In this document: positions 3,525 through 15,816 of the stretch, piece after piece
Position numbering within the stretch: position 1 is the first letter of the stretch
Layout: every line of letters begins with the position of its first letter
Assembly (NCBI GenBank): GCA_903848965.1
Contig: CAINHV010000108.1
Span: forward strand, 1 to 35,672
Reading direction: 5' to 3'
Length of the DNA: 35,672 nucleotides
Source: an uncultured Opitutia bacterium
Lineage (GTDB): Bacteria > Verrucomicrobiota > Verrucomicrobiia > Opitutales > Opitutaceae
The notes under the pieces: generated by a model
What the model was told of the DNA's origin: nothing
Database searches by the model: none
Seen by the model: only the letters and a program-made list of their open reading frames with translations
Translations under genes and position numbers: made by a program

Positions 3525-4223
3525 CTAGATCTTCACGACCTTCGTCGTGGCGATGTAGTCGTGCAGGCAGCGGCGTTCGGCGCCGAAGATGAAGCTGACA
3601 TCGATCAGCCAGAAAAGTCCGCCCAGAAAGGGGATCTGCTCGATCACCAACGGGATCGTGCCCCGCAGCACAAAGGCATGCAGAAACCCGGCCTGGTGGT
3701 TGTTCGCGAGCCGGACGATGCGCAGGCCGAGCAGGGCCTTGCCAATCGACTGCCCCCGCCGGCTAAGCAGGAGGCATTGCACGACCGCAAGCACCGCGAG
3801 GAAAGGGAGGGACTTGGACAGCACGCCTTCCATCGCGACCATGAGCTCGGCGGTCGAGGGTTGTTCGCCTGACCGAATCTGATCGCCCAGCACCGCCCAG
3901 AGCGCGCTCGCGGTGGGAAGCCAGCAGAGCATTTTCAGGACTCCGTCGATCAGGGCCGCGCCGAAGCGCTGCCCAAGACTCGCGAGGGCGAGGTCCGTCT
4001 CCCCTGCCGCGACCGGCTGGCCCGTCAGCGGTGGCTCCATCACCGGCGGCAGCGATCCCGGAGGGGCGAATTCCGCATAGTCGGCGAGGCGGCGCCACTC
4101 CTCGGACCCGAGGACTTTGGCCTGGGTGTCGAGATTAGCCCGGCCCGAATTGATCCAGTTCCGGATCTGATCCGCGCTCACCGGCCCGTACTCGCGGCCG
4201 TCGCCCCCGATGATGGTGAACAT
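3525..4223 (-). CDS. GYF_2 domain plus RDD family membrane protein
   Basis: A 232-residue protein. Residues 1-55 (GGDGREYGPVSADQIRNWI) match the GYF_2 module, a small peptide-binding domain often placed before membrane domains. Residues 83 to the end form an RDD domain: GQRFGAALIDG supplies the early Arg86 and Asp93, hydrophobic helices lie at about 88-112, 138-155 and 190-213, and it ends in RRCLHDYIATTKVV, the usual RDD C-terminus. I chose ATG 4223 because the GYF domain begins there. It sits alone between a convergent dehydrogenase and a divergent spacer. RDD proteins are mostly of unknown role, with some implicated in transport, so I assign no function. Confidence 0.88.
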   Translation of the reverse strand: MFTIIGGDGREYGPVSADQIRNWINSGRANLDTQAKVLGSEEWRRLADYAEFAPPGSLPPVMEPPLTGQPVAAGETDLALASLGQRFGAALIDGVLKMLCWLPTASALWAVLGDQIRSGEQPSTAELMVAMEGVLSKSLPFLAVLAVVQCLLLSRRGQSIGKALLGLRIVRLANNHQAGFLHAFVLRGTIPLVIEQIPFLGGLFWLIDVSFIFGAERRCLHDYIATTKVVKI

Positions 4224-4651
4224 CGCGCTAACGAACACCGGGCCTGCGAACGCGTCAACGTCCGCGGCGAGACGTGACATGGGTCACGCGACCCATGCGA
4301 CGCAAGCGATGGCCGCCCGGACGGGCGGCCTGGATTTCGAAAACGAAAGGAACGCGCGTCAGCGACGCACGTCGGGGCCAACCGCCGCGAGCGATGTCAG
4401 GGAAAGGACAATCTCGTTCATATTCGGGAGAGGGTTGGCGGTTGAGGCGGGCCTCTCGCGAGGCGGGGAAAAGCAGCGAGTCGCGGTGCGGGCCGGTGTC
4501 AATTCCGGGCTGCCGGCTCTGGCCTGAGTGGCACGGGTCTCCCGACCCGTGAAGACCGTGGGTCCATCGGATCCCAACGCATGGGTCGGGAGACCCATGC
4601 CGCTCCGCCCGCGCACTGGACAGCACGCGCCAACGCAATTAGATCCCGTCC
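4224..4651. other. 428-bp spacer without a supported gene
   Basis: This stretch between the RDD gene and the DUF1080 gene holds several hairpins. These are an 8-bp stem (4278-4285 with 4290-4297), a 9-bp GC-rich stem with a 2-nt loop (4311-4319 with 4322-4330) and a full family A element (4528-4603). Open frames crossing it read through the palindromes and resemble nothing I know. Promoters for the two divergent genes should lie here, but I cannot pick out convincing boxes. Confidence 0.6.
4528..4603. repeat. Family A palindromic element, copy 1
   Basis: The left arm (4528-4551) is GTGGCACGGGTCTCCCGACC followed by CGTG. The right arm (4580-4603) is its inverted, slightly altered copy. Each arm also holds its own small hairpin (GGGTC-TCCC-GACCC). 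The same design recurs at 8812, 9977 and 14078. Confidence 0.85.
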
Positions 4652-12365: not shown

Positions 12366-14030
12366 ATGTCCGTCTGGGAATACAAGGTCATCAGCAGCGG
12401 CAAGGGAGGATTCGCCTCACCGGCGTTGCTCGAAAAATTTCTCGGCGACCTGGGCCGTGATGAATGGGAGATCATTCATTACCAGACCCTGCCGGACAAC
12501 GCTCTGGCTTTTTCAGGCCTCGCCCGCCGCTCCACGCAGCGGGACTGGACCCTCGAGGGTGCGGCCAGCGCGGCGGCCAAGGCCGAGGCGGACAAGCTGC
12601 GCGCCGAGTTCGAGGCCAAGTTCAAGGAAGTCGCCGCCCGCACGGGTACTGGCGAAGAGCCGCCGGCGAGTTTCATCGATGAGAAGGTCGCCCCGGAGGA
12701 TGGCCTGCGCAGTCTCGTCGACACGTCGCGTGACGCGGACGCCGATGCGGACGAGGATGAGGCGAAGGTCGATGATTGGGACAAGCTGACGGCCGCCGAG
12801 GAGGATGAACTCCCGACCTTTTTCGAGGCGATGCGTCCGCACATGCGCCGCAATCAACGCGGTCCGGGCATGTCCGTGGGCGCGGATTATCTGGCGCGTA
12901 AATGGGACCAGTCGGAGGACGACATCAAGGGCGCGCTGATCGAGTGCGGCTTCGTTATTCCCGAGAGCGAGGACGACAAGCCGGTGCATCTCGAGTACGA
13001 CGGCGATCTTTATTGGCTGAACGAGAACCGCCGCGGCGAGCTTTGGATCAACACCAAGGAAAAGCCCCGTCCTGTTTTCCGTTCGGTGAAAGCCGAGCGG
13101 GTCACCGTCGAAGAGGAGCCGAAGCCCGAGCGTCCGCGCCCGGAAGAGCGTGAACCGCGTGCCGAGCGCGCGCCCCGGTCCGAGGGCGGCGAACGCCAGC
13201 CGGATTCCGCGCCCTCCCTGGAGGTCTCCGCGGGCCGTACGTCCGAAGCGGCGCCACGCGCGCCGGGCGCGCCGCTGCCGGATGGTTCGGCCTTTTTGGA
13301 AAAAATCCGGCCGCTGATGCGCCGGAATCGACGCGGTCCCGGCGGTTCAGGCAGCGGCAGTTTCCTTTCGCGGGCGCTGAAGTGCAGCGAAGGCGACTTG
13401 AAGACGGCTTTTGCCGGCCTCGGCCTCGTGATGCCGGTCGGTCCGGCTGACAAGCCCGTGTACGTCGAAATCGAGAATCAACTTTGGTGGCTGAATCTCG
13501 ACTCGCGCGGTGGACTCTGGATCAACGGGCGCGACAAGGAACCCGGGGAGACCGTTGCCAGTGCGAACGAAGCCTCGGTCGCCCCCGAACTCGGTGGTGA
13601 GTCGTCTATTTCGGTTGAAAGCGCCGAGCAGCCTCCCGCCACCGCGGCCGCGATCGAAACCAAGCCGGCCGGCGATAACATCTTTGCCGTCGTACGTTCT
13701 TTGTTGAAGCCGACCCGGACCGACGCCCTCGCGGCGAAGGTCGAGGGAATCGCCGAGGAACGCGGAACCGCGCTCGACGAACTCGTCCATCATCTCGTGG
13801 CGGCCGGCTTGAAGCTGCCGGAGAAGCCGCGCGAGAAACCGGTGACGGTGGAGTACGCGGGTGACGTTTTCTGGCTGGCGCGCAACGCCAAGGGCGAGCT
13901 CTGGCTCAACGCCAAGCCCGCGCCCGCAGGCGAAGCGAAGTCCCGGAGTAGCGCGGGCGAAGGCGAGACCGACGGGAAGAGTGGCGACAAGAAGCCAAGC
14001 CGCTCCCGCGGTCGCCGGAAGTCCGAGTAA
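12366..14030 (+). CDS. Uncharacterised three-repeat protein with N-terminal WEYKVI domain
   Basis: A 554-residue soluble protein that I do not recognise as a named family. Residues 1-62 (MSVWEYKVISSGKGGF...LGRDEWEIIHY) resemble the small DUF4177 fold. An Ala/Glu/Lys-rich helical stretch (66-92) and an acidic linker (123-140) follow. Then come three copies of an about 80-residue unit at 146-231, 307-390 and 437-517. Each has a helical first half and ends in a strand motif of the type KPVxxEYxGDxxWLxxNxxG followed by ELWIN. The linkers between units are charged and low complexity. The C-terminus is a basic SRSRGRRKSE tail. A helical unit followed by a beta hairpin suggests winged-helix-like domains and, with the basic tail, possible nucleic-acid or ribosome binding. 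That is inference. No export signal is present. Confidence 0.8.
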   Translation: MSVWEYKVISSGKGGFASPALLEKFLGDLGRDEWEIIHYQTLPDNALAFSGLARRSTQRDWTLEGAASAAAKAEADKLRAEFEAKFKEVAARTGTGEEPPASFIDEKVAPEDGLRSLVDTSRDADADADEDEAKVDDWDKLTAAEEDELPTFFEAMRPHMRRNQRGPGMSVGADYLARKWDQSEDDIKGALIECGFVIPESEDDKPVHLEYDGDLYWLNENRRGELWINTKEKPRPVFRSVKAERVTVEEEPKPERPRPEEREPRAERAPRSEGGERQPDSAPSLEVSAGRTSEAAPRAPGAPLPDGSAFLEKIRPLMRRNRRGPGGSGSGSFLSRALKCSEGDLKTAFAGLGLVMPVGPADKPVYVEIENQLWWLNLDSRGGLWINGRDKEPGETVASANEASVAPELGGESSISVESAEQPPATAAAIETKPAGDNIFAVVRSLLKPTRTDALAAKVEGIAEERGTALDELVHHLVAAGLKLPEKPREKPVTVEYAGDVFWLARNAKGELWLNAKPAPAGEAKSRSSAGEGETDGKSGDKKPSRSRGRRKSE

Positions 14031-14044
14031 CTCGCGGACCGGGG

Positions 14045-14210
14045 AGTGGCGCGGTCTCCGACCGGTGCGCATTCCCCGTGGCACGGGTCTCCCGACCCGT
14101 GGAATGACTTTCGCCCCGCTGATCATGGGTCGGGAGACTCATGCCACTCGGGCCCGACTGGTGTCGAACGGAGGGGAGCTGAGCTTCACTGGTCGGAGAC
14201 CGGGGCAACT
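14045..14210. repeat. Family B palindromic element with a family A element nested in it
   Basis: The outer arms (about 14046-14067, GTGGCGCGGTCTCCGACCGGTG, and about 14188-14210) are inverted copies containing GGTCTCCGACC / GGTCGGAGACC. Between them lies a complete family A element (14078-14147). The spacer between the three-repeat gene and the cupin gene consists almost wholly of this nested structure. Confidence 0.75.
14078..14147. repeat. Family A palindromic element, copy 4 (inner)
   Basis: The left arm (14078-14101, GTGGCACGGGTCTCCCGACC...) and right arm (14124-14147) match as inverted repeats with three differences in 24 positions by eye. Confidence 0.85.
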
Positions 14211-14263
14211 CACGCGGTCGATCTTTTTGACACCGGTGGCGGCCGGCCGTTAGTTCCGGGCCC

Positions 14264-15237: not shown

Positions 15238-15816
15238 GCGGCGCACCGCAAGCGATGTATCCTAAGCGATGCGTTCGAAACGGCACGCGGCGGGCCTAAG
15301 AAGCACCTCGCGTCGGCGACCAAGTCGAACGGTATCACGATGCCTTTCTGGGATGAACGCTTCCACGCCATGGCGCCGTAGTATCACGACGTCCGCACCG
15401 GTCAGTACCACATCGACATCCTCACCGCTCACTTCGGGCGGAATCCGCACTGGTTCGACGTCGTCGTGGAATCGAATCTCTTCGGCGACATCCTCTCCGA
15501 TCTCGGGCCCGCTGTCACCGGGACGATCGGCATCGCGCCTTCGGCCAACATTAATCCCAAGCGCGAGTTTCCCTCGATGTTAGAGCCCGTCCACGGCTCC
15601 GCTCCGGACATCGCGGGCCAGGGCATCGCCAACCCAATCGGCCAGGTATGGTCCGGAGCGATGATGCTCGAACCCCTCGGACAGGCGGCGACGACGGTCC
15701 TGCACGCGATCGAGACCGTCGTTCAGAACGGCCCGTGCACCTGCGACGTGGGTCACGGCCACACGGCCTCGACCGCTGCAGTCGGAGACGCCCTCGCCGC
15801 CGTCGGGTCGGCCTAG
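15238..15816 (+). pseudogene. 5'-truncated tartrate dehydrogenase/decarboxylase with in-frame TAG
   Basis: The plus-strand frame encodes the C-terminal about half of an isocitrate/isopropylmalate dehydrogenase-family protein most like tartrate dehydrogenase. It reads KKHLASATKSNGITMPFWDE, then HIDILTAHFGRNPHWFDVVV, SNLFGDILSDLGPAVTGTIG, IAPSANINPKREFPSMLEP and VHGSAPDIAGQGIANPIGQ. A TAG at 15379-15381 interrupts it where homologs would be expected to have an amino acid, possibly Gln (CAG), so a single C-to-T change could explain it. The N-terminal cofactor and substrate half is absent; sequence to the left belongs to the LuxR-like remnant on the other strand. The ATG at 15466 could still start a 116-residue fragment, but it would lack most of the active site. 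Confidence 0.85.

Follow-up and report, generated by a model that had tools for sequence, protein, structure and literature searches.

The window, a 35,672-nucleotide stretch of DNA from an uncultured Opitutia bacterium of the family Opitutaceae, contains an open reading frame whose product the original prediction had called an unrecognised protein with three diverged copies of an ~80-residue unit. This raises the question of whether the frame is a real gene, what its repeats are and what the protein may bind. The frame runs exactly from 12366 to 14030 on the + strand, with an ATG start and a TAA stop, and encodes 554 aa (Table 1). Compared with four homologues, dN was 0.15-0.29 and dS 1.0-1.4, giving dN/dS of ~0.14-0.24, and third codon positions held most of the differences; the frame is therefore a genuine coding gene under purifying selection. 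A wrong frame or strand can be discarded, since the directly complementary frame contains stops and purifying selection is seen in the + frame.

The encoded protein consists of a DUF4177 domain, three winged helices, acidic disordered linkers and a disordered tail rich in RG, RS and K. It belongs to a lineage-restricted family without characterisation that is assembled from known folds. The architecture is multivalent, as had been proposed, with three predicted folded domains on disordered tethers in the AlphaFold model, and neither the family nor this arrangement is described in the open papers searched.

Table 1. Features of the gene and its product (positions in the window; residues of the 554-aa protein)
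Feature	Position	Strand	Description
Whole gene	12366..14030	+	554 aa; DUF4177 domain, three winged helices and basic tail; single copy
DUF4177-type beta-alpha-beta-beta domain	12366..12536	+	residues 1-57, WEYKVI...; predicted E4-10 H19-31 E35-42 E45-56
Long charged helix after N-terminal domain	12546..12638	+	residues 61-91; modest confidence, pLDDT ~50-70
Acidic, mostly disordered segment	12645..12809	+	residues 94-148; conserved SFxEEKxAPxDGxRxxVDTSRD and DDWDKL
Unit 1, predicted winged helix	12810..13070	+	residues 149-235; acidic, pI 4.9; unit model pLDDT 93.9, pTM 0.84
RRNQRGPG loop of unit 1	12846..12869	+	residues 161-168, between H1 and S1; 80-100% conserved per position
Linker 1-2	13059..13292	+	residues 232-309; mostly disordered; conserved EKPRxVFR at start
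Unit 2, predicted winged helix	13293..13532	+	residues 310-389; basic, pI 10.2
RRNRRGPG loop of unit 2	13320..13343	+	residues 319-326; 83-100% conserved per position
Linker 2-3	13533..13679	+	residues 390-438; acidic, mostly disordered
Unit 3, predicted winged helix	13680..13916	+	residues 439-517; pI 8.3; RRNxRGPG loop not conserved
R/S/G/K-rich tail	13917..14027	+	residues 518-554; disordered; recurrent KKPxRxxRGRxK(S)E-type ending in homologues

The units had been placed at residues 146-231, 307-390 and 437-517, and a unit HMM recovers them at 152-231 (E 1e-37), 310-389 (E 8e-34) and 439-517 (E 3e-26), E-values that express consistency rather than an independent test because the HMM was trained on the family itself. 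The independent test of homology is given by the pairwise Smith-Waterman scores (198, 134 and 88), none of which was reached in 2000 shuffles each, and a chance repeat is thereby ruled out. BLASTP between units (49% identity and E 6e-26 for units 1 and 2; 34% and E 1e-16 for units 1 and 3; E 2e-10 for units 2 and 3) and profile-profile comparison among the three unit families (probability 99.6-99.9%) agree, and the proposed homology stands. Three recognisable units occur in 55 of 66 distinct homologues, two in nine and one in two short homologues; unit 3 is absent, or escapes recognition, in roughly one homologue in seven. A tree of 87 units places the unit-1s, unit-2s and unit-3s in three distinct groups (supports 97/99, 98/91 and 99/97), and under midpoint rooting the closest pair is that of units 1 and 2. 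Since the units cluster by position, the triplication predates the sampled family; it was kept, and is neither a recent nor a homogenised repeat. Two duplications before the radiation of the sampled family would account for the three winged helices.

An AlphaFold model of the unit based on 81 unit sequences reached a pLDDT of 93.9 and a pTM of 0.84, with elements in the order H1-S1-H2-H3-S2-wing-S3. In unit 1 these are H4-11, E21-24, H25-31, H36-45, E66-72 and E78-84, and units 2 and 3 follow the same order. The full-length model holds identical elements in all three units, with pLDDT mostly 90-97, and such confident models contradict any disorder of the units. Foldseek returned only non-significant matches for the unit (CorC-associated domain, PUR-alpha). 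Once re-aligned, its candidates were overwhelmingly winged-helix proteins, with ~58-81 residues aligned, rmsd mostly 2.5-4 and Z of ~4-6, modest values that can reflect merely a common arrangement. Such matches were obtained both for the unit model and for unit 3 within the full-length model. They include RctB, MarR, ArsR, Z-alpha, eS25 and TFE, many of which bind DNA or RNA, and also ScpB and ESCRT-II chains. LOTUS/OST-HTH, a further fold considered, is absent among them, an absence that excludes nothing. From topology and structural matches, a predicted winged helix is the clear reading of each unit. Binding of DNA, RNA or other proteins is the usual task of this very common fold.

The units were thus rightly called unrecognised at the level of sequence, as they have no convincing Pfam, NCBIfam or PDB profile match, no match to regulator-family profiles of the MarR/ArsR type and no profile hit to a characterised domain, but their fold is well known. 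Similarly, the helix and hairpin described earlier are present, but the unit is a complete three-helix winged helix. Over ~80 aa, its predicted topology is that of MarR/ArsR, Z-alpha, the RctB domain and eS25, whereas no sequence relationship to Pfam or PDB winged helices is detectable. The units also differ from known winged helices in their conserved RRNxRGPG loop, in an H3 that is not basic and in their three copies on long disordered tethers.

Among the motifs that had been thought common to the units, the WLNxNxRGELWIN hairpin is present in all three, and the wing signature (W, N, R/K-G, W, N) is kept throughout, with W69 of the unit model 100% and N71 and N81 72-100% conserved. KPVxxEYxG is exact in units 1 and 3, but unit 2 reads KPVYVEIEN. 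MRRNxRGPG is confined to units 1 and 2, as first noticed; the RRNxRGPG loop between H1 and S1 is nearly invariant in these two and lost in unit 3. Charge varies between the units (Table 1): unit 2 carries a net positive charge in 55 of 55 three-unit homologues, and the whole protein is acidic (pI 5.05, net charge -21). Helix 3 is the usual recognition helix of winged helices. Here, H3 (model positions 36-45) has no strongly conserved K/R in any unit, the best being K40 at 60% in unit 1, and is acidic in unit 1, so that classical major-groove reading is unlikely. Contact with nucleic acid through loop and tail, or docking on proteins, would fit these sequences better.

The N-terminal WEYKVI domain is no orphan but DUF4177 (PF13783), a known domain of undefined function. 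The window protein itself matches at E 0.14 and 12.8 bits, below the Pfam cut-off of 25 bits, and membership rests on orthologues: the match is found in 44 of 49 homologues (best E 4e-5), and in genome searches many orthologues exceed the gathering score. The likeness to DUF4177 proteins such as Bacillus subtilis YjzH lies in the sequence match and in the beta-alpha-beta-beta layout, while alignment scores between this domain and the units are ordinary against shuffles, in keeping with the earlier view that it is unrelated to the repeats. Outside the family, DUF4177 occurs mostly in short ORFs, whereas here it heads a protein of several domains and ~430-700 aa among homologues, a context that offers a test of its role. 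YjzH has been recovered in an RNA-bound (OOPS) proteome (PMC12456014), and another DUF4177 protein was reported as bacteriocin-like (PMC11322243); neither report settles the function of the window protein. Beyond this domain, pLDDT falls below 50 across most of the linkers and the tail in the full-length model. Composition bears out the charged linkers, which are acidic (pI ~4-5.6), and the Arg/Ser/Lys-rich tail, which is basic and whose RG/RS/K-rich pattern recurs among homologues.

What, then, might the protein bind? We infer that it is most likely a multivalent nucleic-acid-binding (nucleoprotein) factor, with a probability of roughly one half, and that RNA is a somewhat likelier ligand than DNA. 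In this scheme the RRNxRGPG loop of units 1 and 2, not a basic recognition helix of the classical kind, would contact nucleic acid; unit 3 and the tail would strengthen the binding, and a further RNA or protein contact would come from the DUF4177 domain. The three homologous units, their confident winged-helix models, the DNA- and RNA-binding structural matches, the RRNxRGPG loop, the positive unit 2 and the recurrent tail all favour this reading. So do the DUF4177 domain, with its RNA-recovered YjzH, and a likeness of H2-H3 to the N-terminal domain of IF2; however, the OOPS result concerns a single distant DUF4177 protein and is weak evidence, and a resemblance over ~28 columns is not conclusive. 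The acidity of the whole protein, of unit 1 and of the linkers speaks against it, as do an H3 lacking strongly conserved K/R, the modest structural Z and the want of an operon partner pointing to nucleic-acid work. Binding to nucleic acid or ribosomes, as the original prediction had it, is therefore plausible: the basic unit 2 and tail agree with it, but the acidic unit 1 and whole protein and the lack of conserved basic residues in H3 do not.

Much of the same evidence makes a protein scaffold the main and a serious rival, although we rate it as clearly less probable. The winged helices would then be protein-protein interaction modules, with linker motifs as further docking sites. Acidic winged helices do dock on partner proteins, for example those of ScpB, ESCRT-II and the RPA32 C-terminal domain, and chains of the first two appear among the structural matches. 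An acidic protein with an acidic unit 1, no basic recognition helix and conserved short motifs within low-confidence segments would suit such a role; however, most homologues have a basic unit 2 and a basic tail, and among residues that look exposed the most conserved (RRNxRGPG and wing R75) are cationic. A more far-reaching version of nucleic-acid binding, which we regard as rather unlikely, is that the protein represents a new ribonucleoprotein- or nucleoid-organising family, widespread in Opitutaceae, in which an undescribed winged-helix class binds via the RRNxRGPG loop and three copies plus an RG/RS tail form a multivalent, perhaps condensate-forming, assembly. If the units do bind RNA or DNA through this loop, the mode would be unusual for a very common fold.

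The likeness to IF2 concerns a LAxxLxxxxxDLxxxLxxxGL helix pair that the IF2 N-terminal domain (PF04760) and H2-H3 of the unit have in common, with weak mutual profile matches. The IF2_N profile matches 14 of 49 homologues (best E 0.0022), and the first IF2 stretch aligns with the unit at hhalign probabilities of 3-84%, depending on profile pair and settings; the second IF2 stretch gave no hhalign match to the unit. The alignments cover ~28-35 columns, leave the wing hairpin uncovered and score far below those between units. Opitutaceae IF2 itself (G000:C337:11881-12798 and other genomes) carries two IF2_N-type stretches, each of which scores lower with the Pfam profile than the top-scoring stretch of the order's other families.

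Contigs that carry homologues bear, for the most part, the names Opitutaceae, Opitutae or Opitutus, in line with the placement of the window in Opitutaceae. Among 37 sampled genomes of this family, the window's own being one of them, 33 encode the protein, and 20 genomes from other families within the order yielded none. A broader sample of the order gave 28 positive genomes out of 35 from the family, and two N-domain matches (E ~1e-3) were all that appeared outside it. A phylum-wide draw of 388 genomes, searched with the unit profile for lineage restriction, gave matches in 30 of 37 same-family genomes and only three weak ones elsewhere (E >1e-4). Two of these, in two genomes, fall on one stretch of an unrelated 213-aa hydrolase-like ORF and are due to chance; the third, in one genome, is the IF2 N-terminus. 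A full-length profile also found no match in ten same-family genomes that lacked an earlier one. The window's genome has no second unit-bearing protein, the one extra stretch having E 0.95 and a stop. The protein thus occurs in about four fifths of the Opitutaceae genomes sampled, once per genome, with no convincing match elsewhere in the phylum sampled or among 72,556 plasmid and 50,697 phage records, and has so far been found in one family. A mobile, phage or plasmid gene is rejected on the lack of plasmid and phage matches and the single copy. This conserved, single-copy, family-level protein adds an unannotated winged-helix class to a phylum that has received little study.

In the window the gene is solitary: on one side lies a divergent TonB receptor gene, with an msrP/msrQ-like pair farther out, and on the other a cupin gene. 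Across 45 loci, the divergent TonB receptor gene directly upstream is the commonest neighbour (16 loci), the cupin gene is adjacent downstream in seven, genes for an RsuA-type pseudouridine synthase and for a YhbY-type protein are seen repeatedly at greater distance, and no conserved operon partner was found. Because the recurrent upstream TonB, msrPQ, RsuA and YhbY genes lie on the opposite strand, they are not functional evidence. A DNA-binding transcription regulator or nucleoid protein, in which three tethered winged helices would read or bridge DNA while DUF4177 senses or oligomerises, would agree with the divergent TonB arrangement and with the fold and its matches to MarR/ArsR regulators, but we think it improbable given the absence of a basic recognition helix, of neighbours conserved across the family and of any regulator-family profile match.

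Just 3' of the frame lies a REP-like palindromic interspersed element (window 14077-14150, within 14031-14263), nested in a larger hairpin with an RNA MFE of -128.8 kcal/mol (z -4.3). It has ~40 matching places in the genome (40 of 243 candidates scored). Y1 transposase-type genes, which are expected with REP/RAYT systems, are present in the genome. Elsewhere in the window, 15466-15816 encodes part of a protein of the isocitrate/isopropylmalate dehydrogenase family, its C-terminal third (Pfam positions 239-347 of 348); no N-terminal part is called upstream, and it looks like a truncated gene. At 3525-4280 on the - strand, a GYF_2-type domain, just below the cut-off, is joined to an RDD membrane domain.
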